A stretch of 29,325 nt of DNA from a virus, in the IMG/VR virus record IMGVR_UViG_3300025849_000154, positions 1 to 29,325 of that record; one strand, 5' to 3'. The notes under the pieces were generated by a model, which made no database searches, was not told the DNA's origin, and saw only the letters and a list, made by a program, of their open reading frames with translations. The position numbers and the translations under genes were made by a program. Shown in pieces: positions 7,248 to 29,325 of this stretch; the first letter of the stretch is position 1, and each line of letters begins with the position of its first letter.

Positions 7248-9473
7248 TTATTTATTTATTTTTGATAATGTACCAGAGTTATCGTAAGTTTTAAAATTTA
7301 ATTTCATATCATTACTTCTTTTAAATGGTACAGGTCTGTACTTATTTTTATTACAAGCCATTATAGCTAAACCAGAACTTATAGAAGCATCATGTTTAGT
7401 TCTGTTGTTTATGTTAAATATAGCCCAGTCTTCTAATGTTTTTTGAAAATATACATCTCCAAATCCTGTTTCTAATCTACCGACTTTATCTTCTATATAA
7501 GCTTCTATCGCGGCAGCGTGAGCTTGTTTAACATCTTCACTTGAGTTAGGTATTCCACCTATTTCCTTTTCAGTTGTAGATAATTTATTCCAAACTTTAT
7601 CAGGTCTATTTATTGAAAAACCTCTATAACCTCTTCTTTTAAAATAATATAATAACCTAGGTTTGTTATTTTCACAAAGTATTGGCATGCCATAAAATAC
7701 GCAAGCCATTAGCACGTCTTCAAAAAATATTTCCGCTGTTTGTGGTCTTGATATATATTCTAAAAAGAAATGATTAGGCGGTGAGTCTTCCATTGAAAAC
7801 TTTGTTAATCCATGTAGTGCTCCTTTAGAGCCGCGACCATCAACAGTACCGCTAATATCGTAAGAGTCACAGCCGAAAGCTCCAATATGCTCGTTACCTG
7901 GGTGTTTAGTTCCATTTTTTAATATTACGTTGTTTTGTAGGTTTTTATCAGGAATCCAAGTTATATTAAATCTACCTTGATTGTTTGGGTTAAATTCAAC
8001 TTGAGTATCTTTTACTCCATTAATCCATTGAAAATTACCACAACTAACAACTTTGTTTAAATTCATTTCTTGATTATAATCTATTTGCTCATAAATTTTT
8101 ACAAGATTAAATAAGCTATCTTTAGCTTCATCTCTAAAAGCATGAGCTTCAGATCTTGGAAATTGTCTATAATATTCATTTAAACTATCTTGATCGCTTT
8201 TTAATCCATCAACTTCGTTTTCCCAATGTTCGATAACTCCTGTTGTAATTTCAAAACCATCAACTCCTTTGATTGTATTTTTACCTCTAATGAAGACAGG
8301 TAGTCCATAAGTATCGATGAATCCTTCGTAGTTCCACTCCATAGGTATGAACAAGCTATAGAGTCCAGAAGACGTTTGTCCGTTTCTATTTCTTTTAGTA
8401 ACGTCAGAATTGTAGTATAATTTTTTGAAGTTGTCTCCACCTTTATCTAAAGCATTTGATGTTGAGCCCATCATACATTTACCTACGATTTTAGATCCCA
8501 GCCTCAATGTAGTTTTTGTAACCCTCCAATTATTTAATATATTATCAGGTCTTTCCCACTTACCACTTTCATCATGAGCTAGTAACTTTAGCTTTTCACC
8601 ATCATAAGAGTTGTCACCCGTGTTCTTCCAGTCAATAGTTGTGTCTAGTCCTTCTAGTTCTCTAAGTTGTTCATTCGACTCAAGCTTTCTTCTAGTAAGT
8701 TTCGATGCTGGAACTCTATAAGCCAGTTCAGTCTTCGGCCGGTCCATACCATCTTGAATAGGTTTAAAGAAGAATGGGTAGTTAACTGATATGGGTACAA
8801 CTTTATCCGTGAACATTTTTTTGGCATCTGCACCAGACTTGGAAAGTATTCCGAATCTAGCATCGGAAGATATTGTAGCTTGGTTGACAAGTTCTGAGCT
8901 TGACATAAAAGAGAATCCAGATCGTCTGTTTTTAAGGTAACACATTCCGTAACATCTTGTGTCGGCTTTGCAAGCTTCCCAAAATATGTAGAATAGTCTA
9001 TTTGACTCTCTATAGTCAGGTGCTCCAACGTCAATTTTTGACCATTGCAGGTACATGTAATGAGTGCCAGTAATGTAAGTAGCAACACCATTGTTATAAA
9101 AGTGAAATCCTTGTTCTCGTCTAGTAAATTCATTATCAATATAATCGTACCACTTTTCTTTAAATTCAGCTGGATATTCCTCCCAGTCAAACCTACTTTT
9201 AATCCTACTTAACTCTTTTGGATATTCGGCTTTTTCCCAGTATTGTTCCGCTTTTTCTTTGCTTCGTTTAAACGGTTCATCTGCTGCTGGTAAAGCAATC
9301 CTGAGATTTTGTATTTCAATGATTTGTCCAATTTTACCTGTTTTACTTATTACTATAAAATCATAATCAGAGTTATAGCCATACTCCCATTTTTTAAATC
9401 TATTGTTTTTAGCTAGTATCTTAGGATTTACAACGTCCTTAATTTCTTTCCAAAGCATTTGCTCGTAACTCAC
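7248..9473 (-). CDS. terL: Terminase large subunit (packaging ATPase/nuclease)
   Basis: 741 aa, GTG start overlapping the stop of the preceding gene by four bases (an in-frame ATG is codon 6). It packages DNA into proheads. A probable P-loop is LKNRRSGFSF at about 180-189 and a Walker B-like KLLAHDES at about 297-303 with Asp-Glu. MMGSTSN near 334-340 could be the coupling motif. The C-terminal nuclease is suggested by an Asp in GCDSYDISG (about 530), acidic ENN in CENNKPRLLYY (about 600), and Asp-695 in KHDASISSG, the three acidic positions of RNase-H-like terminase nucleases. The P-loop lacks the usual GK(S/T), having GFS. The length exceeds the 400-600 aa of many TerL proteins. The residues GTHYMYLQWSKIDVG resemble crAss-like TerL from memory. 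Confidence 0.8.
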   Translation of the reverse strand: MSYEQMLWKEIKDVVNPKILAKNNRFKKWEYGYNSDYDFIVISKTGKIGQIIEIQNLRIALPAADEPFKRSKEKAEQYWEKAEYPKELSRIKSRFDWEEYPAEFKEKWYDYIDNEFTRREQGFHFYNNGVATYITGTHYMYLQWSKIDVGAPDYRESNRLFYIFWEACKADTRCYGMCYLKNRRSGFSFMSSSELVNQATISSDARFGILSKSGADAKKMFTDKVVPISVNYPFFFKPIQDGMDRPKTELAYRVPASKLTRRKLESNEQLRELEGLDTTIDWKNTGDNSYDGEKLKLLAHDESGKWERPDNILNNWRVTKTTLRLGSKIVGKCMMGSTSNALDKGGDNFKKLYYNSDVTKRNRNGQTSSGLYSLFIPMEWNYEGFIDTYGLPVFIRGKNTIKGVDGFEITTGVIEHWENEVDGLKSDQDSLNEYYRQFPRSEAHAFRDEAKDSLFNLVKIYEQIDYNQEMNLNKVVSCGNFQWINGVKDTQVEFNPNNQGRFNITWIPDKNLQNNVILKNGTKHPGNEHIGAFGCDSYDISGTVDGRGSKGALHGLTKFSMEDSPPNHFFLEYISRPQTAEIFFEDVLMACVFYGMPILCENNKPRLLYYFKRRGYRGFSINRPDKVWNKLSTTEKEIGGIPNSSEDVKQAHAAAIEAYIEDKVGRLETGFGDVYFQKTLEDWAIFNINNRTKHDASISSGLAIMACNKNKYRPVPFKRSNDMKLNFKTYDNSGTLSKINK

Positions 9474-9742
9474 TTACTTCTCCCTTCTGCAAACTTAAAT
9501 ACTCTTTCTTTTTTTTCTTCTTTAGGTTTGCCTTCTAATAAGTTCTTTTCTTCCTCTATCCTGTTTAATATTTCAAAAGCATCAAATATAGCTAACTTTT
9601 TTGTAGCAGCAGCGTTTTTTAACCTGTCAGCTGTAACATCTTCACCAGTATCTACTATAGGTTCTTTAGCTACTTTAATTAATTCCTTAACTGCTAATTG
9701 CCCAGCTTGGATTATATTCTTTTTCGTTTCCTTGATATTCAT
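9470..9742 (-). CDS. Small terminase candidate (TerS-like)
   Basis: 90 aa, nearly all predicted helical, with a Lys-rich start, a central segment DRLKNAAATKKLAIFDAFEI and a Glu/Lys-rich end. It lies immediately upstream of terL with a four-base overlap, the usual place for the DNA-recognition subunit of the terminase. Small terminases are short helical proteins that form rings and bind packaging sites. I see no classical helix-turn-helix signature, so the call rests on position, size and helicity. The start lies 56 bases inside the 3' end of the upstream gene, an unusually long overlap, and there is no later Met in the frame. Confidence 0.5.
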   Translation of the reverse strand: MNIKETKKNIIQAGQLAVKELIKVAKEPIVDTGEDVTADRLKNAAATKKLAIFDAFEILNRIEEEKNLLEGKPKEEKKERVFKFAEGRSK

Positions 9743-10280
9743 GAGTTAAAGCTATATCATTAGATTTCATACAATACAAACGTTCATTACCTATTATAAA
9801 TTCAAACTCTGAATTTGGCGTGAACGTTATAAGTGCCCCAGGTTTTATTCCTATGGCTTCTAAAGAGCTATTTGAATATTTTAGTATTCCAGTATTAACT
9901 TGCTCCTTATTGTTTATTAAAATGTCTTTATTTAAAATTGGCTTTACAAAGCAGTAATCTAAATGGCTTTTGTCATTATATAAATATATTTGACTTGGCG
10001 AACAGAAGTATAGATTATCTTTAAAAAAAGTAGCACTATTACGCTCTTTTCCTTTTTGATCATACCATCTTCTAAATACATTATGATGTATATAAACTAC
10101 GTCTTTAGGTCTTACGCCAGTGTCAAAAGCGGCAGGTGTAGAAACAACAACCGCTTTTTTACTGACAAATCTATGATCTTCAATATTAGTATTAATGATA
10201 AGAGTTTTATCATCTACTTTTCTTATATTGTCATACCTTTCATTAAAAGGTTTAACAATAAAATTATATAAAGATCTCAT
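9687..10280 (-). CDS. Tandem GroES-like (cpn10-fold) protein, putative
   Basis: 197 aa, starting at ATG 10280, which overlaps the previous stop as TAATG. An upstream ATG at 10337 gives 19 extra residues but lies deep in the previous gene. Two halves look alike and like co-chaperonin 10: about residues 5-100 (YNFIVKPFNER, AVVVSTPAAFDTGVRPKDVVYIHH, ending IYLY) and about 104-183 (CFVKPI, VNTGILKY, GIKPGALITFTPNSEFEF, LYCMKSNDIAL). Both follow the cpn10 order FIVKP..., gain of a V/G turn, GD-like x-x-V-x-F, then a final strand ending in dI-hydrophobic. The central GD is replaced by KD and GA. The mobile-loop motif is not obvious, so a chaperonin partner role is uncertain. The separate groES at 15.6 kb is a normal single domain. 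Confidence 0.5.
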   Translation of the reverse strand: MRSLYNFIVKPFNERYDNIRKVDDKTLIINTNIEDHRFVSKKAVVVSTPAAFDTGVRPKDVVYIHHNVFRRWYDQKGKERNSATFFKDNLYFCSPSQIYLYNDKSHLDYCFVKPILNKDILINNKEQVNTGILKYSNSSLEAIGIKPGALITFTPNSEFEFIIGNERLYCMKSNDIALTHEYQGNEKEYNPSWAISS

Positions 10281-12866: not shown

Positions 12867-13061
12867 TTACTTTTTATTTTTACAACCAAAGTTTTTAGCA
12901 TAATTAGCCATTTTAACTACATCTGAAGAATACTTTTTCTTTGATCTCATTACTTTATTTGCGGCTTTACAGTTGTCAACACCAGGCATATTTTTCTCTA
13001 CCCAGGCTGTAAACTTGCCTTCATTTTTTTTATCTATTTCTGGAAACTCTTCTTTAGCCAT
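12867..13061 (-). CDS. Small basic protein with two cysteines, 64 aa
   Basis: Helical, charged, with segments KFTAWVEKNMPGVDNC and KYSSDVVKMANYAKNFGCK. Cysteines at about 31 and 60 could pair. It ends in KNKK and resembles no family I know. Its start block (AAAATAAAGTTATGGC) is nearly the same as that of the 418-aa gene just downstream and the 82-aa gene just upstream, so the three share a duplicated translation leader. It sits in a run of small basic proteins. Confidence 0.6.
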   Translation of the reverse strand: MAKEEFPEIDKKNEGKFTAWVEKNMPGVDNCKAANKVMRSKKKYSSDVVKMANYAKNFGCKNKK

Positions 13062-13071
13062 AACTTTATTT

Positions 13072-13320
13072 TTATCCTTTTTCCTTGTCTAAAGGATCAG
13101 TTTTTGGGTCAGTTTTAATTTTATCTTTATCTTCTTTCTTTATCCCTGGCTTACGTATTTTAATGCACTTAAACTTTTTTTCACCAGGATTTTTAGATTT
13201 TTTCTTTTTCGAGGGGTTTTCTCCGTAAGAACTATCTTCTTCATTTGGGTCTATCTCTACTCTTCTATAGCCTTCTCCGCAAGGACGTTCTTTTTTCTTT
13301 TCTTTTCTTTTTGTTGCCAT
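13072..13320 (-). CDS. Small basic protein, 82 aa
   Basis: Begins MATKRKEKKKERPCGEGYRR, contains an acidic patch (DPNEEDSSYGENPS) and then KKKKSKNPGEKKFKC and an end of alternating Lys/Asp. A longer frame upstream exists to 13401, but it runs back across the neighbouring 47-aa gene; ATG 13320 has the repeated AAAATAAAGTTATGGC leader and is preferred. Two Cys, no membrane segment, and largely disordered. Function unknown; it belongs with the lysine-rich cluster. Confidence 0.6.
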   Translation of the reverse strand: MATKRKEKKKERPCGEGYRRVEIDPNEEDSSYGENPSKKKKSKNPGEKKFKCIKIRKPGIKKEDKDKIKTDPKTDPLDKEKG

Positions 13321-13324
13321 AACT

Positions 13325-13468
13325 TTATTTTTTATAAGGAAAATTTTTATTGAACCAGTCTTTACTATTAATACATCCACAACCACCAGGTATAGTATCA
13401 ACTAATTTTTTTATACCTGTAGCTCTAGTAAATTTTTCTATCGAATCTCCTAATCCTTTAGATTTCAT
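13325..13468 (-). CDS. Small cysteine-containing protein, 47 aa
   Basis: Begins MKSKGLGDSIEKFTRATGIK, then KLVDTIPGGCGCINSKDWFN and ends in KNFPYKK. A helix (residues 6-25) leads to a CxC pair (Cys30, Cys32), a Trp/Phe patch and a basic tail. The DSIxxFTxxTGIKKLVD...CGC pattern resembles short proteins I recall from marine phage structural regions. It fits exactly between its neighbours (three and one bases apart), a strong sign that the frame is real despite its size. Function unknown. Confidence 0.65.
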   Translation of the reverse strand: MKSKGLGDSIEKFTRATGIKKLVDTIPGGCGCINSKDWFNKNFPYKK

Positions 13469-13469
13469 T

Positions 13470-13844
13470 TTAGTATTTTGTTTTACTTTTCTTTACAGAT
13501 CTAGATCCTTTGCTTTTAACAACTTCTTTTCTGGTTTTTACTCCTTTTTTCTTTTTTTCTACTACTTTAGTTGTTGCTTTTTTACCGTCTTTTACAAACT
13601 TTGTTTTAGACTTATATTTTCCACCTTCACTAGCACCTGTTTTACCACTCATTTTAGCAGTTTGCTTTGTTTTTTTCTTAACAACACCAAGTCTTGCTTC
13701 TTTTGCAGATTTAGGACCTTTTTGCTTTGTTTTTTTAGTTTGTTTAGAAGCATATTTATCTCCTTTTTTAAATACATTTTTAGTAGATGCATCTGAAGTT
13801 TTAGTTTTTTTAACTTCTCTTTTTTTCTTTGTTTTGTCTGGCAT
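13470..13844 (-). CDS. Very lysine-rich protein, 124 aa
   Basis: About one third Lys, with Thr, Ser and Arg and hardly any hydrophobic residues (KKTKQKGPKSAKEARLG, ending VKKSKTKY). Such a polymer-like composition is typical of DNA-condensing, histone-tail-like or capsid-internal proteins. It is not a classical HU/IHF protein: no HU/IHF DNA-binding loop is seen. A same-strand shadow frame overlaps it and was not counted. It lies directly downstream of the amidase gene in the transcript. Confidence that it is translated is fair; the role is inferred only from charge. Confidence 0.6.
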   Translation of the reverse strand: MPDKTKKKREVKKTKTSDASTKNVFKKGDKYASKQTKKTKQKGPKSAKEARLGVVKKKTKQTAKMSGKTGASEGGKYKSKTKFVKDGKKATTKVVEKKKKGVKTRKEVVKSKGSRSVKKSKTKY

Positions 13845-14604: not shown

Positions 14605-15129
14605 TTAATAATATGCATCCATATATGATTCTGCTAATTCAGCGTCATCCATTTTTTTATTACCTTTATAGGTTTTCCAAGCAGCTTTTCTTTCTGCTTT
14701 TCTTTGCTTACGCATTACTCTTTTTGCTTTTCGACCTTCTTTACCACCTAGTTCTCCTTTGAGTTCTTTTCTAGCAATTTTATCCTGTTTTCTTGTTGCT
14801 TTCTTTTGTTTTCTAGCAGCTTTTTTACCCGCCTCAAAAAACTTACCGTCTGCATCAGTAAAACCTTCTTCATCAGCTTTTTCAAAGTCTTCAGTATCTT
14901 CTTCTACTCTATCTATAGGATCAGGTATCATTGTTTCATACTGATCACTTGGAGGAGCCATACCAACGACACCACCGACATTACCACCTACAGATGTTTG
15001 AGCAACACCTTGTATTGGTGTTGGAGTAAACGTAGCTAAACTACCCGTTGGATCTGGGTTAGCACCTTCTGCAGCGTCTCCACCTGACATGGCGCTAAAA
15101 ATATCTTCTTGAGAACTATCTATTGGCAT
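14605..15129 (-). CDS. Two-part protein with acidic N-half and basic C-half, 174 aa
   Basis: Residues 1-90 are Ser/Thr/Gly/Pro-rich and acidic (TGSLATFTPTPIQGVAQT, DPIDRVEEDTEDFEKADEEG). From about 98 to 160 the protein becomes strongly Lys/Arg-rich (KKAARKQKKATRKQDKIARK), with a helix-like spacing, ending MDDAELAESYMDAYY. The composition suggests an extended acidic segment and a nucleic-acid-binding helix. No enzyme motif is present. The start lies just three bases after the stop of the winged-helix-like gene and its long hairpin. A virion-internal or ejected protein is possible; nothing identifies it. Confidence 0.6.
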   Translation of the reverse strand: MPIDSSQEDIFSAMSGGDAAEGANPDPTGSLATFTPTPIQGVAQTSVGGNVGGVVGMAPPSDQYETMIPDPIDRVEEDTEDFEKADEEGFTDADGKFFEAGKKAARKQKKATRKQDKIARKELKGELGGKEGRKAKRVMRKQRKAERKAAWKTYKGNKKMDDAELAESYMDAYY

Positions 15130-15130
15130 A

Positions 15131-15565
15131 TTATCTTGTTTTATCTTTATTTACAAATGTAACTGCTTTTGCAGTTACTTTGTAAATATATCTATTGTTT
15201 TTATCTAATTTTTTAGTAGGCATATCTTCTTCGCCTAGCATTATACGATACATTCTGCTTATTAGTTGTTTGCACTTTATGGATACTTTATATATATGAT
15301 ATTTTTGGGTAGTGCGATTTCTATTTCTCCACACTGTAATCCACCCTTGTTTCAATAATCTGTTCCAGCGCCTATTGTCCCAACTATAAGAATATGTACC
15401 TTTTTTAAAATCATCTTTAGTAAACATGTCTAAAGCATCTAAGTAGATTAATAACTCAAGGTCTGCATCTTTAATATCACATGTTTTGCAAGCCCATTTA
15501 CGTATTATTCTGTAATGCTTTAATAATTTAAGTTCTTTTAAATCTGAAGATGTTAGTTTTCTCAT
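15131..15565 (-). CDS. Winged-helix-like protein coupled to groES
   Basis: 144 aa, basic. A possible DNA-binding core at about 37-95 combines helices (LELLIYLDALDMFTKDDFKK, RRWNRLLKQGWITVW) with a following beta hairpin (TTQKYHIYKVSIK), which is the order of a winged helix. Cys26 and Cys29 in WACKTC could form a small metal or disulphide knuckle. The C-terminus continues KQLISRMYRIMLGEE. Its start overlaps the groES stop (ATGA), so groEL, groES and this gene form a three-gene coupled unit. A regulator or a chaperonin-linked structural protein would both fit, and no name can be given. Confidence 0.6.
   Translation of the reverse strand: MRKLTSSDLKELKLLKHYRIIRKWACKTCDIKDADLELLIYLDALDMFTKDDFKKGTYSYSWDNRRWNRLLKQGWITVWRNRNRTTQKYHIYKVSIKCKQLISRMYRIMLGEEDMPTKKLDKNNRYIYKVTAKAVTFVNKDKTR
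15148..15188 (-). other. Long near-perfect hairpin at end of chaperonin unit
   Basis: On the plus strand 15148-15187 reads TATTTACAAA, one unpaired T, GTAACTGC, TTTT loop, GCAGTTAC, TTTGTAAATA; 18 base pairs with one bulge. It lies in the last codons of the winged-helix-like gene, ending 15 bases before its stop at 15131. On the coding (minus) strand no U-tract follows it, so it is not a classic Rho-independent terminator. RNA processing, mRNA 3'-end protection or an operator are possible. Confidence 0.7.
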
Positions 15566-15822
15566 AATATAATAACAACATCAATCTCTTTAATTACCTT
15601 ATAATTATCTTTGTTTATTTCAATACCAAATCCAGCGTTTCTGTCGTAATATATTTCATCGCCTTTTTTTAGTACTTTAACTTCAGAGCCAGTTTCTATA
15701 ACCTTAGCTCTTCTGTATCTTATATCTTCTCTTTGCTTTTCAGCTAAGATTAAACCTCCTTTTGTAGTCGTATCAACTTCTTTGATAGGATCTATAACTA
15801 TATACTTACCTACCGCTTTCAT
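15562..15822 (-). CDS. groES: GroES co-chaperonin
   Basis: 86 aa, slightly shorter than the 97 aa E. coli protein. It caps the GroEL ring with substrate and ATP-dependent partners. The order is normal for cpn10: N-terminal strand MKAVGKYIVIDPI, mobile loop with GGLIL at 22-26 (the GroEL-binding I/V/L triplet), then KVIETGSEVKVLKKGDEIYY at about 39-59 with the conserved GD, and DNYKVIKEIDVVIIL as last strand. The roof loop is short (RNAGFGIEIN). Start ATG overlaps the groEL stop as ATGA, and its stop overlaps the next start the same way. In bacteria groES usually precedes groEL; here the order is reversed. A working cap for phage or host GroEL is likely. Confidence 0.9.
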   Translation of the reverse strand: MKAVGKYIVIDPIKEVDTTTKGGLILAEKQREDIRYRRAKVIETGSEVKVLKKGDEIYYDRNAGFGIEINKDNYKVIKEIDVVIIL

Positions 15823-17363
15823 GCTCTAATATTACTTACGACACAGTCAGTTGATAATATTGTCGTAGCCACTGAAGCTGCATTTTTTAAAGCGCTTTTA
15901 GTAACCAACAAAGGATCTATAATACCGGCTTTTATCATATCGACAGGTAGACCAGTAATAACATCTATTCCTTTACCATCATCAAATTTTTCTAACTTTT
16001 CTACACCAGCATTTTTTAATATTAACTCGTAAGGTTTTCTTATTGCTTGATATAAAACTTCTTCACCTATACAAGTTGGTTTCAAGTTGAAACTAGCATT
16101 TAATAAAGCAACACCACCACCTGGTAATATACCTTCTTTAATTGCAGCTTTTGTAGCACAAATAGCGTCTTCTACTCTATCTCTCTTCTCTTTTAACTCT
16201 ATTTCAGAGTTAGCCCCAACTTTAACTGTAGCGACTTTAGCTTTTAATCTAGCCAATCTAGTTTCTAACCTTAAAATAAGATTTGGGTTTTTAGTTTCTT
16301 TTATTTGATTTTCTAAAGAATTAATAGTTTCTTTTACTTTTTCATTTTCAGAAAGATCAACTTGTAATATAGTTTCTTCATTATTAGTTATAGACTTTAT
16401 ACATGTGCCTAATAAGTCAGGTTGTATAATATCCATATCATCACCTAGATCTTCATTAATAAGTGTAGCGCCAGTAACAGCACATAGATCGGATAATACG
16501 TCTTTTTTGCTGATTCCAAATATTGGCGCATCTATGATGTTGACTTTTATATTACCCTTCTTCTTATTCATAGACAACGCGGAAACTACCTGTGGGTCAA
16601 CATCTGCAATGATAAGAAGACTCTTACCATTTTTTATAATATATTCAAGGATTGACTGAATTTTCCTTATGTTGGTTATTTGTGACTCTACAATGAGCAC
16701 GAGCGGATTATCTAATTCAGCCGTTCCTTTTTCTATGTTGGTGATAAAGTGGTTGTTCTTTAACGCTTGGTTATATTGAACACCCTCTATTAACTCAACG
16801 ACTGTTTCTGGTTGCTCGTTTGTTTCCATCATAACAATACCAGTCTCGTCCACTAATCTGAATGCTTCTCCTATAACCTTACCTAGCTGTTTATCATTAT
16901 TAGATGATATAGTAGCTACTTGGTATATTTTCTTTCCAGTTATCTTTTTACTTTTCTTATTTAGATACTTAACAACTTTATCTACTGCACTTTCAATACC
17001 TTGTTTCATTGTTCTTGTATCGTCAAGTAGTGAGTGCTCTGTTGCTTGATCTAGAATAGCCTTTGCTAATACTGTTGCTGTAGTTGTACCGTCACCAGCA
17101 TCTGAAACAGTACGTTGTGCAGCTTGTTTAATTAACGTAGCTCCAATATTTTCTAATGGATTTTGTAACGTAATTGAATTAGCTACCGTTACTCCATCTT
17201 TTGTTATCTGCGGCTTGCCATTGCTATCTTCTAATATAACACATTTACCACTTGCTCCTAGAGTTGATCCTACTGCATTAGTAAGTTTCTCAACCCCAGT
17301 TAATACCTGACTTCTAGCAGTATCGCCAAAAGCCAGGTTTTTAACTAACTTTAATTCTTGCAT
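15819..17363 (-). CDS. groEL: GroEL chaperonin, phage-encoded
   Basis: 514 aa, versus about 548 in E. coli. It forms the double-ring ATP-driven folding chamber. Key residues are present: ATP-site TLGASGK at 34-40 (usually TLGPKG), Asp56 in ITKDGVTV, DGTTTAT at 91-97, Asp399 in RVEDAICATKAA (E. coli Asp398) and GGG at 415-417. In the apical substrate face KNNHF at 202-206 replaces the usual LSPYF, so Tyr203 is His, hinting at altered substrate choice. The GGM-rich C-terminal tail is missing; it ends CVVSNIRA. Leader is a TAAAT repeat. The gene is followed by groES and a coupled third gene. Phage GroEL may fold capsid or fibre proteins that host GroEL handles poorly. Confidence 0.93.
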   Translation of the reverse strand: MQELKLVKNLAFGDTARSQVLTGVEKLTNAVGSTLGASGKCVILEDSNGKPQITKDGVTVANSITLQNPLENIGATLIKQAAQRTVSDAGDGTTTATVLAKAILDQATEHSLLDDTRTMKQGIESAVDKVVKYLNKKSKKITGKKIYQVATISSNNDKQLGKVIGEAFRLVDETGIVMMETNEQPETVVELIEGVQYNQALKNNHFITNIEKGTAELDNPLVLIVESQITNIRKIQSILEYIIKNGKSLLIIADVDPQVVSALSMNKKKGNIKVNIIDAPIFGISKKDVLSDLCAVTGATLINEDLGDDMDIIQPDLLGTCIKSITNNEETILQVDLSENEKVKETINSLENQIKETKNPNLILRLETRLARLKAKVATVKVGANSEIELKEKRDRVEDAICATKAAIKEGILPGGGVALLNASFNLKPTCIGEEVLYQAIRKPYELILKNAGVEKLEKFDDGKGIDVITGLPVDMIKAGIIDPLLVTKSALKNAASVATTILSTDCVVSNIRA

Positions 17364-18032: not shown

Positions 18033-19463
18033 TTAACCGTCTATTGTGTTACTACCAGATCCAAATCCAGATGAACCATCTATTTCAAACTTACCTTTAT
18101 TATTGTTTGTACTAGGGTTTGGCCATACTGGTAATACAGTGTTGTTTGTAGTGTCTTGAGAGTTTGAATCAAAGGAGTAATATGTTATTAAGCCTGCAGG
18201 TTGTGAGGTTTTAGATATAGTACCTCCAACACCCTCATTGTATAAACTTTCTACTTCTTCTGAATCTAAAGCACTATCCCATAGACTGTATTCGTCCATG
18301 TAAGTATCTCCATTACCTCCCAAGTAACCTCCTTTTAAGTCTCCAGTTCCTCCAAAAGAATTATTTTGAGAATAAGGAGCACCTAATATAGTCATAAGTC
18401 TAGCATCAGTTGTATTAAAACCAGCATTAACATTTCCACCACTAGTTTGTCCATTTGTGCCTGAAAATGCTGGACTACCACAGTCAACTCCATTCCAGTA
18501 TAATTTACAATTAGATGGGCTAACAGTACCATTAAATGTTATTGTTATCATACAATAACCATTATCATTTACATTACCATCGTTAGTGTTTGACCAAAAC
18601 GTATTTCCTAAACCTGTTGCTTGAGCCATACTTGATTCCTCATTAGAGTTATTCATTTGCCAATAGTTTTGAGCATATTTAAGATTGTTACCTAAAAACC
18701 CAAAATACAGCCTATTATAATCTTCTCTAAAAAATAATCTAACATTTTGGTTATAAACATTAGAAGCATAGGGAGATTGAATTGCATTAGCAGATACTCC
18801 CCAGAGAAATTGATATGTTCCTTGAGACGGAGATAAATTAGCTGTCCAACCAACTTTTAACCAAAAATTAAGTGTAAAATTAGTATTATAACCTAATCTT
18901 AAATCACTTGTTGACTCATCAGTAGATTTCATTATTATTCTATTAGCTATACTAGTCATAACATTAGTACCATCTCTATAAATAGAACCTTTTGTTTCTG
19001 CTGCTGATTGAGTAGCTTGAGATACTCCAGCTGTTACAGTTGTACCTTGATTATTTGTTGCAAAAGCAAAAATATAATATGTAGTACCAGCTGTTAAACC
19101 AGTTCTAGCACTAGAATATGTACCTGTTCCAGATCCAACAGTAATTTGAGTATTTCCTGCTCCGTTGTAAGTACTAGCAGTACCAAACCAAAATCCTCTA
19201 GAAGTTACTGGCGCACTGCCTTGAGCTGTAACATTAGCATTTATAGTCATACTTGTTTGAGCTACACTTGTAGCAGAACTAGTTTGAACAGAAGGATTAG
19301 TAGACGCAGCTCCATAAAAGTCAGCTAGCGTTATTCTTTGACTTGACGATTTACCTATATAAGAGCCTAAGTCTTTAGAAAGCTCTACCGCTTCTTCGGT
19401 AGATACTCCAAATTCTTCACATATATCTCCTATGGTTATTCTACCTGATTCTGGTAACGGCAT
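18033..19463 (-). CDS. Tail fibre or adhesin with FN3-like and lectin-like domains
   Basis: 476 aa. Residues 1-54 form an N-terminal module (PESGRITIGDICEEFG, then SQRITLADFYGA) that recurs at the start of many phage tail-associated proteins and likely anchors to the tail. About 55-155 is a Thr/Ser-rich Ig- or fibronectin-III-like domain (GLTAGTTYYIFAFATNNQG is typical of the FN3 last strands). About 160-440 is a concanavalin-like (LamG) jelly-roll region with DEYSLWDSALDSEEVESLYN, the standard end of such domains. LamG-type domains bind carbohydrates, so a receptor-binding role is reasonable. Start overlaps the S74 protein's stop as TAATG; the 86-aa gene follows two bases later. Confidence 0.7.
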   Translation of the reverse strand: MPLPESGRITIGDICEEFGVSTEEAVELSKDLGSYIGKSSSQRITLADFYGAASTNPSVQTSSATSVAQTSMTINANVTAQGSAPVTSRGFWFGTASTYNGAGNTQITVGSGTGTYSSARTGLTAGTTYYIFAFATNNQGTTVTAGVSQATQSAAETKGSIYRDGTNVMTSIANRIIMKSTDESTSDLRLGYNTNFTLNFWLKVGWTANLSPSQGTYQFLWGVSANAIQSPYASNVYNQNVRLFFREDYNRLYFGFLGNNLKYAQNYWQMNNSNEESSMAQATGLGNTFWSNTNDGNVNDNGYCMITITFNGTVSPSNCKLYWNGVDCGSPAFSGTNGQTSGGNVNAGFNTTDARLMTILGAPYSQNNSFGGTGDLKGGYLGGNGDTYMDEYSLWDSALDSEEVESLYNEGVGGTISKTSQPAGLITYYSFDSNSQDTTNNTVLPVWPNPSTNNNKGKFEIDGSSGFGSGSNTIDG

Positions 19464-19927
19464 TACTTAGATTTTTTAAGTTCGTCTATTTCTACTTTTA
19501 ATTCTTTAATTGCCTCAATTAGTAAAGGCACAATTTTTTCATATTTAACGGCTTTATATCCAGTGTCTCTTGTTGTTACTACCTCTGGTAATACTTTTTC
19601 AACTTCTTGAGCAATAACCCCAACATCTCTCCCTTCAAATGAATGTACATTTTCTTTTATGTCATCACTTGCTTTTCTCCATATAAAATTAACTCCGTTT
19701 ATTTGGTTTACTTTATCTAAAGCATTTGGTATATTTTTAGGGTATTTTTTTAAACGCTCATCTGAAGTAGCAAAAGCAACAACATCATTAGCGGCATATA
19801 TAGCGCCATTTGTTGCAGATTCGGTTACACTACCTATTTTCAAGGCGCCATTAGTAACTGTAGTGGCGCCATCTATATCGGCGCCACCACCTGTTACATT
19901 TATTTTGCTTACAAAATTAATAGCCAT
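19463..19927 (-). CDS. Short protein with Peptidase_S74 intramolecular chaperone
   Basis: 154 aa. The S74 domain folds a fibre trimer and then cuts itself off by a Ser-Lys dyad. Here Ser55 and Lys60 in SDERLK are present with the normal spacing, followed by the family pattern GVNFIWRKASDD, VGVIAQEVEKVLPEVV, VKYEKIVPLLIEAIKELK. Only about 54 residues precede the cut, beginning MAINFVSKINVTGGG, similar to the start of the 591-aa fibre next to it (MAINFLSDIDLKGNK). The usual S74 protein is the tail end of a long fibre; this one is almost free-standing. Its start and stop both overlap neighbours as TAATG. The stub could be a mini-fibre trimer or the domain could act on a partner. Confidence 0.88.
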   Translation of the reverse strand: MAINFVSKINVTGGGADIDGATTVTNGALKIGSVTESATNGAIYAANDVVAFATSDERLKKYPKNIPNALDKVNQINGVNFIWRKASDDIKENVHSFEGRDVGVIAQEVEKVLPEVVTTRDTGYKAVKYEKIVPLLIEAIKELKVEIDELKKSK

Positions 19928-26096: not shown

Positions 26097-26114
26097 AATT
26101 CTTTTTTTTATTGT

Positions 26115-26124
26115 TAGACGTCTA
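26115..26124. promoter_or_regulatory. Perfect palindrome TAGACGTCTA, operator candidate
   Basis: Ten-base perfect palindrome, TAGACGTCTA, centred 23 bases upstream of the first minus-strand start codon. Short palindromes of this kind can be operators or restriction-like sites (it contains AATATTAG-adjacent GACGTC, an AatII site). Only one copy is obvious, so support is weak. Confidence 0.3.
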
Positions 26125-26191
26125 TATTAGTAATTCACTTATTTTTTATAAGATTTACCTTATTTTAACAGTATTTATTTATAGCACAGGG

Positions 26192-26235
26192 GTGACACTT
26201 GCCTCTTATTAGTAGCTTTAATAGGCTAATGTCAC
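26192..26235 (+). terminator. Hairpin followed by T-run, plus-oriented terminator-like
   Basis: Outer stem GTGACA (26192-26197) pairs with TGTCAC (26230-26235). An inner stem GCCT with AGGC and a three-base TTA/TAA follow, with an internal loop and a ten-base loop. Directly after comes TGTTTTTA. Orientation fits plus-strand transcription, yet no plus-strand gene lies to the left, so it may protect the late region from read-through or serve another role. On the minus strand there is no T-tract after it. Confidence 0.45.
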
Positions 26236-26425
26236 TGTTTTTAGAAAATTATTAGAAATATAGAACTTTGGGGTTACCCCCTCATCGTAATCTATTTACG
26301 TTCTACCCAAATCAATTTTAATTTTACGGGCCCCCTTCTGTTTTTTTGTCTTTTTTAAAAAGTTTTGGCTTTTACTTTTAGTTTTCTTAATACCATTTAC
26401 CTTTTATGTTTTGACTATACATAGT

Positions 26426-26449
26426 AAATACGATGTTTATAAGATAATA
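26426..26449 (+). promoter_or_regulatory. T7-like promoter copy 1
   Basis: AAATACGA (26426-26433), nine bases, then G at 26443 in AGATAATA. With G as +1 the core sits exactly as in T7 promoters. It precedes the G-free gene by 23 bases. Upstream is an AT-rich stretch with TTTGACTATACATAG. Confidence 0.7.
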
Positions 26450-26465
26450 GTACTAAATAATCAAT

Positions 26466-26705
26466 ATGACAAATACAATTAAAACAAATCAACTACATAT
26501 CTTAACTCTTAACAATCAAACTTATATCCCATTTCAACCTCACACTCTACCTTCTTACTTTAATAATATTCCACTCTCTTCTATTATTAACTATAAATCT
26601 TATACTTATATAAATATTAAATCTCTTAAACAATCATTAAAATACTATACAAACAACTTAACATTCAACAAACATTTATCTCCAAATTTATTACATCAAA
26701 AATAA
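26466..26705 (+). CDS. G-free gene, 79 aa, function unknown
   Basis: ATG at 26466 opens 79 codons and the only G in them is in ATG. The protein starts MTNTIKTNQLHILTLNNQTY and is Asn, Leu, Thr, Ser, Tyr, Ile, Lys and Pro-rich. Apart from Met1 only the 11 residues with G-free codons are used: no Ala, Arg, Asp, Cys, Glu, Gly, Val or Trp. It is basic with no acid. No signal peptide, membrane segment or family. In a random sequence of the same A/T/C make-up a TAA would be expected every 15 or so codons, so 79 open codons suggest translation (rough estimate near 1% by chance). It lies between T7-like promoters 1 and 2. Alternatively it is a functional G-free RNA whose frame is open by accident. 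Confidence 0.5.
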   Translation: MTNTIKTNQLHILTLNNQTYIPFQPHTLPSYFNNIPLSSIINYKSYTYINIKSLKQSLKYYTNNLTFNKHLSPNLLHQK

Positions 26706-26722
26706 ATATACAATATAAATAC
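26469..26722 (+). other. 254-base stretch with no G on the plus strand
   Basis: Read base by base, no G occurs from 26469 (after the ATG) to 26722 (before the G of promoter 2), while C is 54 of 254 (about 21%). The neighbouring 26724-27000 has 15 G in 277. Low GC alone therefore does not explain it. The span starts at the first gene's start codon and ends inside the next promoter's TACGA. The transcript from promoter 1 would be G-free over its whole coding part. Confidence 0.9.
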
Positions 26723-26740
26723 GACTAACTAAAGATAATA
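26717..26740 (+). promoter_or_regulatory. T7-like promoter copy 2
   Basis: AAATACGA (26717-26724), then CTAACTAAA, then G at 26734. This copy is the closest to T7: AATACGACTAACTAAAG against AATACGACTCACTATAG differs at two positions. It closes the G-free stretch. A tiny ATG frame (MTNFTII) follows at 26766 but is not counted as a gene. The stretch to the next gene at 26907 has no gene and includes a hairpin (26810-26843). Confidence 0.75.
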
Positions 26741-26809
26741 ATACTAAATAATAAATAAAAACAACATGACTAACTTCACTATAATCTAATACTAATATAA
26801 ACTAATTAA

Positions 26810-26843
26810 CTTGCATTCTCATGTAAAACATAGAGAGGTCAAG
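26810..26843 (+). other. Structured element in leader after promoter 2
   Basis: CTTG (26810-26813), TCTCATGT (26817-26824), loop AAA, ACAT (26828-26831), bulged A, GAGA (26833-26836), CAAG (26840-26843). The pieces pair as three stacked stems of four bases each, with short internal loops. It lies in the 140-base noncoding part of the promoter 2 transcript and is the only G-rich patch there. It may be a structured leader or small RNA. No known RNA family is recognised. Confidence 0.4.
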
Positions 26844-26906
26844 TGAAGTACCTTAACACTAAAATTAACTAATAAACTAATATACACTTTTAAACTAACA
26901 AAAAAT

Positions 26907-27020
26907 ATGAAAACTTTAAACTATTTACCACTAATATTTATAACTTCAATTATAACTCTAATTGCTTACAATATAATAACTTACGGAATTATTAACTACA
27001 TTTCATTTAATGGAATTTAA
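26907..27020 (+). CDS. Single-helix membrane microprotein, 37 aa
   Basis: MKTLNYLPLIFITSIITLIA then YNIITYGIINYISFNGI. Almost the whole peptide is hydrophobic, forming one membrane helix (about residues 6-24) and possibly a second amphipathic stretch. The A-rich leader CTAACAAAAAAT and the tight fit before promoter 3 support translation. Such microproteins are common in phage early regions and can target host membrane complexes, but the role here is unknown. Confidence 0.55.
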   Translation: MKTLNYLPLIFITSIITLIAYNIITYGIINYISFNGI

Positions 27021-27028
27021 TACAAACT

Positions 27029-27052
27029 AAATACGAGAAACTAAAGATAATA
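27029..27052 (+). promoter_or_regulatory. T7-like promoter copy 3
   Basis: AAATACGA (27029-27036), GAAACTAAA, then G at 27046 in AGATAATA. It starts nine bases after the stop of the 37-aa gene and drives the 58-aa gene at 27083. Confidence 0.7.
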
Positions 27053-27082
27053 TATATAAATAAACTAAATAACAAATAAATT

Positions 27083-27259
27083 ATGAAATACTTTAATGAC
27101 GATACTATAAATCACTTTCAATTTGAATCAAATTATGTAAGTAAAAAAGAAATTCAAAAACAAGTAAATGAATTTGTAGAAATTGATTGTGAATATAATT
27201 CAAATGAAGATAAACAAATGCTAATTGATACTTTAATTAAATTAATATATACAAAATAA
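27083..27259 (+). CDS. Small acidic protein, 58 aa
   Basis: MKYFNDDTINHFQFESNYVS, then KKEIQKQVNEFVEIDCEYNS and a helical end NEDKQMLIDTLIKLIYTK. Charged, helical, one Cys, no membrane segment. Codons are all AT-ending. It lies between promoters 3 and 4 and its stop overlaps the first bases of promoter 4. Family unknown; size and charge are typical of phage early proteins. Confidence 0.65.
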   Translation: MKYFNDDTINHFQFESNYVSKKEIQKQVNEFVEIDCEYNSNEDKQMLIDTLIKLIYTK

Positions 27260-27281
27260 ATACGAATACTTAAAGATAATA
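27258..27281 (+). promoter_or_regulatory. T7-like promoter copy 4
   Basis: AAATACGA (27258-27265), ATACTTAAA, G at 27275, AGATAATA. It overlaps the TAA stop of the 58-aa gene by two bases. It precedes the 87-aa gene by 43 bases of A-rich leader. Confidence 0.7.
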
Positions 27282-27323
27282 ATAATAACTAAACTAAATA
27301 TAAATAAATAAAATAAAATAAAT

Positions 27324-27587
27324 ATGAAAACTAATAACTTAACAACAAAAAGATTTGTAATCAGAAAATCATTAATAGGTACAAATACAATTGTAACTTT
27401 TGTAAACAAAAAACAAGAAACTGTTTCTTATGATCATGATGAAATTTACTCAACATTTCAAGAAAAGTTTGAAACTATGGCTTGTTTCCAACAGTACAAA
27501 TCTTATACAAACTCAAATTGTATACCTAAATTTTGTAGAGATTTTTCTATAAATGCTTCACATTCTAAGTCAGTTCACTCTGAATAG
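27324..27587 (+). CDS. Small basic protein, 87 aa
   Basis: MKTNNLTTKRFVIRKSLIGT, then a beta-like segment NTIVTFVNKKQETVSYDHDE and a C-terminal part with three Cys (MACFQQYKSYTNSNCIPKFC). Cys about 54, 66 and 71, with several His at the end (ASHSKSVHSE), might bind metal, but the pattern does not match a known zinc finger. The 104 bases after it hold no T7-like motif but include an ACTCT/AGAGT inverted repeat and a long A-rich leader. Confidence 0.65.
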   Translation: MKTNNLTTKRFVIRKSLIGTNTIVTFVNKKQETVSYDHDEIYSTFQEKFETMACFQQYKSYTNSNCIPKFCRDFSINASHSKSVHSE

Positions 27588-27690
27588 TTGAATAAAAACT
27601 CTTAGTTGATAGTAATACTTTAGAGAGTATAAATATAACGAACATATTACTCAGCACAAACTAATTAATAACTAATAAATAAATATAACT

Positions 27691-27891
27691 ATGTATAATC
27701 CTAACAACCCAAGTAATTGGTCTTGGTCAAAAGCTTTTGATGAAATGAATCAAACAGTAAATCAAGCTGAACTTACTCAACAATGTATAAACCATGTTCT
27801 AAATTATCCTGGTGAAGCTAATGGTGTCTTTATGTCACTAAACAAAACTCAACAAGATGATGTTTATGAACTACTAAATCAAATATTATGA
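27691..27891 (+). CDS. Small acidic helical protein, 66 aa
   Basis: MYNPNNPSNWSWSKAFDEMN and then QTVNQAELTQQCINHVLNYP and GEANGVFMSLNKTQQDDVYE, ending LLNQIL. Helical with two Trp, acidic, one Cys. No membrane segment. The TGA stop overlaps the next ATG (ATGA), starting a chain of three coupled genes. Family unknown. Confidence 0.65.
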   Translation: MYNPNNPSNWSWSKAFDEMNQTVNQAELTQQCINHVLNYPGEANGVFMSLNKTQQDDVYELLNQIL

Positions 27892-28049
27892 GTACTAAAG
27901 TAATAAAAGGTGGTTATAATTTAAATACCACAATAGACAAAGTAGCAATGTCAGAATTTAAAATGCACTACTATCAACTCGGTGAAAACGAGCAACAATG
28001 GTGTAATGATGAAATGGTAAATAATCCTAAATGGTTATCAAAAATATGA
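27888..28049 (+). CDS. Small protein, 53 aa, coupled between two genes
   Basis: MSTKVIKGGYNLNTTIDKVA then MSEFKMHYYQLGENEQQWCN, ending DEMVNNPKWLSKI. Both ends overlap neighbours by ATGA, strong support for translation. Two Trp, one Cys, mixed charge, no membrane segment. Function unknown. Confidence 0.65.
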   Translation: MSTKVIKGGYNLNTTIDKVAMSEFKMHYYQLGENEQQWCNDEMVNNPKWLSKI

Positions 28050-28303
28050 ATAAAATAATACTAACAATTGGAGTAGCTAGTTCGTTGCTAGCTTCTCCTG
28101 CAGAAAAAGATGGTACAATAGTAAACTCAGTAGAAACAAACAAATATCTACTAAGTGAAGCTTTAAATAATATCCAAGATATGAAAGAGTGGATGCAGAG
28201 TGATGTAGACAAAGATAATATAATTACAGATTTAGGTGAATATTACATTGAATATCTTAATGAAACTGAAGATATATTACTTGAAATTTCTAACACAAAA
28301 TAA
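28046..28303 (+). CDS. Small exported protein candidate with signal peptide, 85 aa
   Basis: ATG 28046 overlaps the previous stop (ATGA) and is preferred to an in-frame upstream start at 28031. The N-terminus MNKIILTIGVASSLLASPAE has a Lys, a hydrophobic core and small residues before a likely cleavage near SPA, fitting a Sec signal peptide. The rest is acidic and helical (KYLLSEALNNIQDMKEWMQS, EYYIEYLNETEDILLEI). Export to the periplasm would be unusual for an early phage gene and could affect the envelope or superinfection. A lone membrane anchor is the alternative. Confidence 0.6.
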   Translation: MNKIILTIGVASSLLASPAEKDGTIVNSVETNKYLLSEALNNIQDMKEWMQSDVDKDNIITDLGEYYIEYLNETEDILLEISNTK

Positions 28304-28305
28304 AT

Positions 28306-28407
28306 ATGAAAAAGAAAACAGATTTTACTACAGATGGATTTGAAGTACTAGGTTACTTCTTATTAACAGCAATAACAGTAATATTATTTGCTTACATTAC
28401 AAACTAA
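28306..28407 (+). CDS. Single-helix membrane microprotein, 33 aa
   Basis: MKKKTDFTTDGFEVLGYFLL then TAITVILFAYITN. A Lys-rich start and one membrane helix (about 14-31). It starts two bases after the previous stop and its own stop overlaps promoter 5. It has the same size class as the 37-aa and 49-aa membrane proteins nearby. Function unknown. Confidence 0.6.
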   Translation: MKKKTDFTTDGFEVLGYFLLTAITVILFAYITN

Positions 28408-28429
28408 ATACGAATAGTGATAGATAATA
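28406..28429 (+). promoter_or_regulatory. T7-like promoter copy 5
   Basis: AAATACGA (28406-28413), ATAGTGATA, G at 28423, AGATAATAATAAC. The TATAG end is T7-like. It overlaps the stop of the 33-aa gene and lies just before the gene starting at 28435. Confidence 0.7.
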
Positions 28430-28434
28430 ATAAC

Positions 28435-28683
28435 ATGAAACATATACAAACAGACAATTTAACTATAATTGACTATGGTGACAACACAGGTAAATTACAA
28501 ATATATAATAAAACTAAATCACCTTATGGTTATAATCCAAGAAACCTTATTGTTTCACTATTAGGTAGACCACTAAAAGAAATTACGTACAACTATGTAC
28601 AAAAACAAGTAGACAAAGTGTATTCTACTTTCAACTATGATGAAATACACGAACTAATAACTAAAATAAATAAAAATGACTAA
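28435..28683 (+). CDS. Small basic protein, 82 aa
   Basis: MKHIQTDNLTIIDYGDNTGK then LQIYNKTKSPYGYNPRNLIV and a helical end (KEITYNYVQKQVDKVYSTFN, HELITKINKND). An upstream GTG at 28417 lies inside promoter 5 and would be lost from a transcript that starts at 28423, so ATG 28435 is chosen. No known domain. It overlaps the next gene by eight bases. Confidence 0.65.
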   Translation: MKHIQTDNLTIIDYGDNTGKLQIYNKTKSPYGYNPRNLIVSLLGRPLKEITYNYVQKQVDKVYSTFNYDEIHELITKINKND

Positions 28684-28825
28684 AACTCTTAAACAAGCAG
28701 TAACATTTCTAACAGAGTGGAATATGCTAAAAATATACGCTACAATTATGACTACGGTTTTCTTATGTATATGGATTCCAACTATGTTTATGGTAATTAA
28801 AGAATTAATACAAACTTTTATATAA
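28676..28825 (+). CDS. Single-helix membrane protein, 49 aa
   Basis: MTKTLKQAVTFLTEWNMLKI then YATIMTTVFLCIWIPTMFMV and IKELIQTFI. One long helix (about 20-40) that would cross the membrane, with Met and Trp. Overlaps the previous gene by eight bases and the next as TAATG, so it is coupled on both sides. Function unknown. Confidence 0.65.
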   Translation: MTKTLKQAVTFLTEWNMLKIYATIMTTVFLCIWIPTMFMVIKELIQTFI

Positions 28826-29046
28826 TGATACTAAGCAATAAAGAAAAACTTAAAATTACTTGGAGAGTAGTTGACTCACTATACGAAAAACTAGCTAACG
28901 AACTAGAATATGAACTTGAAAGTCACAGTGACTTCATAGAAACTAACGATGAATTTATGGATTTATTCAATGAAATGACTATAAAAATAGTAAAGTATAT
29001 GAGAAGCGAACTATTTCAACCAATGACTAATGAAGATTTAAAATAA
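28825..29046 (+). CDS. Small acidic helical protein, 73 aa
   Basis: MILSNKEKLKITWRVVDSLY, then EKLANELEYELESHSDFIET and a helical end (MTIKIVKYMRSELFQPMTNE). Amphipathic helices, acidic, no Cys and no membrane segment. It starts in TAATG overlap with the membrane gene. A DNA-mimic or inhibitor type is conceivable from the acidic helices but not shown. Confidence 0.65.
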   Translation: MILSNKEKLKITWRVVDSLYEKLANELEYELESHSDFIETNDEFMDLFNEMTIKIVKYMRSELFQPMTNEDLK

Positions 29047-29050
29047 TAAT

Positions 29051-29221
29051 ATGACAGAACAACAAGCGATTGAAGCAATCGCTAATGATATACAGGATGG
29101 TATCTACGGTTGGACACAGAAATGTGGCACAGAATGGCAAAAGTGGACATACTCACTAATGCAAGCAAGAAAAATATATGATGGTGAACTAATAATAGAT
29201 TTAGAAAATGGAAGTGAATGA
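29051..29221 (+). CDS. Small protein with tryptophans, 56 aa
   Basis: MTEQQAIEAIANDIQDGIYG then WTQKCGTEWQKWTYSLMQAR, ending in KIYDGELIIDLENGSE. Three Trp and one Cys, acidic, helical. It starts four bases after the previous stop and is overlapped by the last partial gene by 14 bases. No family recognised. Confidence 0.65.
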   Translation: MTEQQAIEAIANDIQDGIYGWTQKCGTEWQKWTYSLMQARKIYDGELIIDLENGSE

Positions 29222-29325
29222 ATTAGAAGATGCTAAAACATTAAAAGCAGTGATGTTCTTAATGATACAAGAGCATGTGAGAAGTATACCTAATGATCAA
29301 GAATTAGGTCAAAGAATAATAAAAA
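29208..29325 (+). CDS. N-terminal fragment of a small protein, cut by window edge
   Basis: ATG 29208 opens 39 codons reaching the end of the window: MEVNELEDAKTLKAVMFLMI then QEHVRSIPNDQELGQRIIK. Charged and helical with a hydrophobic patch. It overlaps the 56-aa gene by 14 bases in another frame. It cannot be named; the tail is missing. Confidence 0.6.
   Translation, partial: MEVNELEDAKTLKAVMFLMIQEHVRSIPNDQELGQRIIK

Follow-up and report, generated by a model that had tools for sequence, protein, structure and literature searches.

A phage chaperonin gene set with a predicted tandem GroES-like co-chaperonin encoded near the terminase

The virus record analyzed here, a contig of 29,325 bases whose whole length is referred to below as the window, carries a phage chaperonin set within its run of structural genes, consisting of a GroEL, a single-domain GroES and a second co-chaperonin, ES2. 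By sequence and model comparison, the three genes encode the folds expected of them, GroEL keeps an intact ATP site, and the genes recur together. ES2 lies outside the coordinates covered by an earlier note on this DNA, in the same window, and was overlooked there.

The source is a marine virus with flavobacteria-type hosts. groEL, groES and the gene that follows them, g3, are found within a long co-directional run that also holds tail-fibre, lysis, terminase, portal and capsid genes (Table 1). All three lie on the minus strand. As the earlier note described, groEL comes before groES, and both junctions are four-base ATGA overlaps. Elsewhere in the window, a separate 154-aa gene at 19463-19927, adjoining the tail-fibre genes, carries a Peptidase_S74 intramolecular chaperone domain, and the region 26097-29325 comprises a strand switch and then short plus-strand reading frames, with no tRNA genes there.

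Table 1. Positions of the chaperonin genes, their junctions, g3 and the terminase in the window
Feature	Position	Strand	Basis
Terminase large subunit, two genes downstream of ES2	7248-9473	-	phrog_6681 E 1.2e-164
ES2, 197 aa, predicted tandem two-domain GroES-like co-chaperonin	9687-10280	-	phrog_13932 E 9.6e-18; model; Foldseek
ES2 domain 2, about residues 103-181, predicted GroES domain, short loop	9738-9974	-	hhalign, VIA
ES2 domain 1, about residues 1-102, long mobile-loop-like segment, LII motif	9975-10280	-	ES2 alignment A1
g3, 144 aa, MarR-like winged-helix protein (predicted)	15131-15565	-	phrog_17028 E 5.7e-12
groES/g3 ATGA overlap	15562-15565	-	reads ATGA on minus strand
groES, 86 aa, single-domain co-chaperonin, GGLIL mobile loop	15562-15822	-	Pfam Cpn10; alignment A3
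groEL/groES ATGA overlap	15819-15822	-	reads ATGA on minus strand
groEL, 514 aa, group I chaperonin	15819-17363	-	Pfam Cpn60_TCP1, phrog_5725 E 1.6e-134

GroEL and its single-domain GroES

The GroEL matches the Cpn60 family profile (Pfam Cpn60_TCP1, 185.7 bits against a cut-off of 34.3) and NCBIfam NF009487 (454 against a threshold of 352), and scores below the NCBI GroEL equivalog TIGR02348 (445.6 bits against a cut-off of 582.1). Judged by its sequence, it is a family member that has diverged from the standard bacterial GroEL; in the PDB it is matched best by a reconstructed Fibrobacteres-Chlorobi-Bacteroidetes ancestor. Like the E. coli system, the phage set combines a GroEL with the same ATP-site residues (37% identity to E. 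coli GroEL) and a GroES with a GGLIL loop. Residues T30, G32, K51, D52, D87, T89, T90, D398 and D495 are kept in every one of 128 sequences when aligned to E. coli, T91 is kept in 127 of them, and the ATP site reads as intact at every residue checked. The 86-aa GroES meets the Pfam Cpn10 profile at 42.1 bits (cut-off 21.1), and its mobile loop with the hydrophobic tripeptide (KGGLILAE) is conserved in the GroES alignment A3. Unlike in E. coli, groEL precedes groES, the GGM tail is missing, and substitutions occur on the apical face (Y203H, L234Q, V264M) and between rings (R452E).

Two of these differences had been pointed out in the earlier note and are borne out by the alignment: E. coli GroEL is the sole bearer of a GGM tail among 129 aligned sequences, and phage His205, standing where tyrosine is usual, aligns with E. 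coli Tyr203. Further apical changes are Y199L, S201N, L234Q, V263S and V264M, with F204 and L237 unchanged; Y203H (112/128), L234Q (123/128) and V264M (124/128) predominate in the clade. The suggestion that substrate choice may therefore differ does not follow from them. Since the GroES mobile loop is bound by the same apical helices (PMC5780408), apical changes alone do not indicate new substrates, and the altered residues may have as much to do with the choice of lid as with that of substrate.

A side question, compatible with the mixed-lid model set out below, is whether the phage GroEL acts as a single ring, like the chaperonins of phages OBP and AR9. Inter-ring contact residues are changed (R452E, K105E, E434K, S463L, V464E), although the alignment is gapped near 425-470, and R452E is also present in the engineered single-ring mutant SR1. 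We nevertheless consider a single ring unlikely: inter-ring E461 is kept, and the chaperonins of OBP and AR9 work without any co-chaperonin (PMC9598537), whereas two are encoded here. The same difference extends to phage EL, which like OBP and AR9 encodes a GroEL homologue acting without a co-chaperonin (PMC7185714, PMC9598537).

The leaders of groEL (e.g., L007 and L008) are conserved and AT-rich (caaattaaattaaATG) and show no evident ribosome-binding site ahead of the gene, a pattern that would be in keeping with translation starts in Bacteroidetes.

The ES2 gene beside the terminase

The first match to the GroES family phrog_13932 was a 216-aa reading frame by the terminase; the likely gene is 197 aa long and overlaps the preceding gene by one base, and its length and position before the terminase are kept in relatives. 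Between ES2 and the terminase lies a 90-aa gene (9470-9742) that overlaps the ES2 end by 56 bases and is, by position only, a small-terminase candidate.

Structural modeling of ES2 (pLDDT 88, pTM 0.82) gives two beta domains. Over its full length, the model is matched best in the PDB by chloroplast Cpn20 (7ekq_R; Foldseek E 4.4e-4, TM 0.54), and residues 1-180 of the model align with Cpn23 (7ekq_Q) at VIA Z 9.4, with an rmsd of 4.8 Å over 155 residues. On the model, then, one ES2 chain holds two GroES-fold domains. Domain 2 is the clearer of the two, matching the phage GroES profile at an hhalign E of 2.4e-8 and single GroES structures at VIA Z 7-8. The GroES rows of the latter alignment span domain 2 only, and, as one domain can fill such a list, they carry no weight for domain 1. 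By sequence, domain 1 resembles GroES weakly (hhalign probability 32%, E 5e-4). Pfam searches with the separate domains of the window sequence gave no Cpn10 match, and in phi19:3 and phi38:1 domain 2 is matched by Pfam. The GroES profile A3 has Cpn20 7ekq_R, over both domains, as its top PDB match (E 8.6e-19).

The loop of domain 1 (residues 21-40) is modeled at pLDDT 72-79, below the rest of the model, as expected of a mobile loop, and domain 1 of relatives carries GroES-like loop motifs (GLIL in elemo, SGLEL in phi19:3). Mobile loops are not found in both domains: the domain 2 loop is shortened in the window's clade, and may therefore not reach GroEL, and is longer in phi38:1 and phi19:3. 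Because of this shortened loop, ES2 is filed as Cpn20-like and not as Cpn20. It resembles the chloroplast pairing of Cpn20/Cpn23 with Cpn10/Cpn11 in its tandem GroES domains, its length of about 200 aa and the single-domain partner encoded alongside; it differs from Cpn20/Cpn23 in being phage-encoded, in an identity of about 10%, in the domain 2 loop, in the placement of its gene by the terminase and in that its assembly is something we only infer here.

Related phages were found via the terminase large subunit. The related terminase is present in 89 phage records and ES2 in 85 (77, plus 8 more from a further search), and in every phage examined ES2 sits with terminase, portal and capsid genes. 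The four records beyond the ES2 set match, by number, two Tenacibaculum and two crAss-like records; Gundel_1, the one of these checked, lacks ES2. Eight complete or near-complete phage records were compared, and the seven with ES2 (Manatee Spring, elemo, Panino, phi13:2, phi19:3, phi38:1 and Calle_1), which represent only about six lineages, form the reference set. All seven also carry a single-domain GroES and clear g3 matches, and five carry groEL. Gundel_1, the eighth record, has neither ES2 nor GroES, and its g3 match is short and weak. Seventy viral contigs carry ES2 together with 9.5 kb or more of upstream sequence; groEL occurs on 66 of them, groES on 67 and g3 on 68. A strict co-occurrence of ES2 with groEL, a first impression from tblastn, was rejected, as phi19:3 and phi13:2 have ES2 and no groEL. 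That both lid genes persist in these two phages suggests that the lids work together and can serve the host GroEL.

When genome contigs were searched with profile A4, every ES2 hit fell on a contig binned into a metagenome-assembled genome, and these contigs are probably of phage origin. Cellulophaga phage phi14:2 also encodes an unnamed protein of 129 aa with a GroES-like predicted fold (BFVD S0A2F3).

Parts of this gene set have been recorded before. GroEL and GroES have been reported from phages, among them Panino (PMC11590407), and from Southern Ocean viruses (PMC8407431), cpn10 is a core gene of the Pervagoviridae (PMC8776804), and the ES2 gene of relatives is already annotated as 'chaperonin cpn10' or 'co-chaperonin GroES'. 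Tandem GroES co-chaperonins have been reviewed as chloroplast-specific (PMC5780408), and within the literature searched plant chloroplasts and their relatives are the only source given for the double lid type. That literature yielded no paper on a double-domain GroES in phages, on a fold of this chloroplast type there or on its joint occurrence with a single-domain GroES, and earlier notice elsewhere is possible. The terminase-adjacent ES2, the single-domain GroES and g3 are shared with phi38:1 and Calle_1 (Pervagoviridae), phi13:2 and phi19:3 (Pachyviridae), Elemovirus and Maribacter phage Panino; unlike the window, the Baltivirus phages phi13:2 and phi19:3 lack groEL, and the named relatives arrange g3 and groES differently.

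The gene following groES

The AlphaFold model of g3 (pLDDT 87.4) agrees with the winged-helix-like fold that the earlier note had read from the sequence. Its best Foldseek matches are MarR-family regulators (E 3.1e-4), to which it aligns at VIA Z 10.8 with an rmsd of 4.0 Å over 108 residues, and it also resembles the T4 MotA activation domain (VIA Z 9.5, rmsd 3.1 Å over 85 residues). The winged-helix core is shared with MarR, TcaR and MepR (VIA Z 10-11), whereas, unlike MarR-family regulators, g3 has no MarR match in Pfam or NCBIfam and no above-threshold sequence family there. By its modeled fold, g3 is likely a DNA-binding regulator, and probably an ordinary one rather than part of the chaperonin.

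The earlier note had taken the coupling of g3 to groES as a hint that its product works with the chaperonin or controls it, the three genes forming one unit, and we now regard that reading as improbable. The close clade speaks for it, with the order groEL-groES-g3 on one strand in 150/150 related viral loci scored, as do the regulator fold and the placement of g3 within about 1.1 kb of groES in 5/7 complete relatives. Against it, the junction itself is not uniformly kept: groES and g3 overlap or adjoin in 97/143 distinct regions and are separated by an inserted gene in the other 46/143. In the largest group, the inserted gene encodes a Lys-rich protein resembling in kind the window's own Lys-rich genes, whose low-complexity products are encoded at 12867-13844 and 14605-15129. 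Beyond the close clade, g3 lies on the opposite strand from groES in 5/7 relatives (Manatee Spring, elemo, Panino, phi13:2, phi19:3), and in phi38:1 and Calle_1, where groES comes before groEL, it is unlinked, lying tens of kb from groES. Phages phi13:2 and phi19:3 keep g3 with groEL absent, and g3 therefore does not need a phage GroEL. A scan of the groEL leader for a regulator site found no inverted repeat of 8 bases or more. Gene overlap as proof of partnership was also rejected, overlapping junctions being common in this genome (10 of the 30 junctions in the window, with overlaps of 4 bases at 4 of them and of 1 base at another 4). We conclude that g3 is a conserved groES neighbor and not a dedicated GroEL partner, results that weaken the reason to treat it as part of the chaperonin. 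Being regulator-like, it may still control nearby genes.

Lid assembly and alternative roles for ES2

We tentatively propose that a single lid with seven GroES domains is built jointly from ES2 and the single-domain GroES, three ES2 and one GroES being one possible combination. The mixed lid would close the phage GroEL, or in relatives with no groEL that of the host, and the closed chamber would enclose phage virion proteins during folding, while g3 would be a separate MarR-like DNA-binding regulator kept near groES and no part of the chaperonin. As a whole, this account commands slightly less than even confidence from us, and its client proteins are a guess from gene position. It has a precedent in plants, where Cpn10(1) works only together with Cpn20 (PMC4242682) and the native chloroplast lids are most likely seven-domain hetero-oligomers (PMC5780408). 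Several points tell against it: ES2 domain 1 is weak by sequence, with no Pfam Cpn10 match alone; the short domain 2 loop may fall short of GroEL; the ES2 gene lies by the terminase, far from groES, and its product could act alone; GroES and ES2 could each form homo-oligomers; and the reference phages cover only about six lineages.

The main alternative separates the two lids, with a heptamer of the 86-aa GroES serving the phage GroEL and an ES2 oligomer redirecting the host GroEL to capsid proteins in the manner of T4 gp31. The location of ES2 beside terminase, portal and capsid genes in all phages examined fits such a role, Cpn20 homo-oligomers function with GroEL (PMC5780408), and gp31 resembles ES2 domain 2 (VIA Z 6.0). 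Phage-encoded lid proteins that serve capsid folding are indeed known from T4 (gp31) and RB49 (CocO) (PMC9598537), but these are single-domain proteins of phages without their own GroEL, whereas here two lids and a GroEL are encoded. Separate lids would not predict the single-domain GroES kept in phi13:2 and phi19:3, which have no groEL, and we find this alternative plausible yet doubtful. We think it very improbable that ES2 is instead a component of the virion or of the packaging machinery, built on a borrowed GroES fold, and no co-chaperonin. Its fixed position beside terminase and portal, its occurrence in phages without groEL and the short domain 2 loop of the window's clade would all suit a virion part, but domain 1 of relatives keeps GroES-like loop motifs, and phi38:1 gp089 has no structural label while its neighbors gp092 and gp093 are labeled structural.

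These phages may have independently evolved a mixed lid of the chloroplast type, for their own GroEL or, where groEL is absent, to take over that of the host, a possibility that we rate at rather less than an even chance. How a seven-fold ring accommodates lid domains in even number has been debated for the chloroplast (PMC5780408), and a small phage system that encodes one double lid and one single would make that question simple to test. With some members lacking a GroEL of their own, such a system would also show how phages retool host folding machines.
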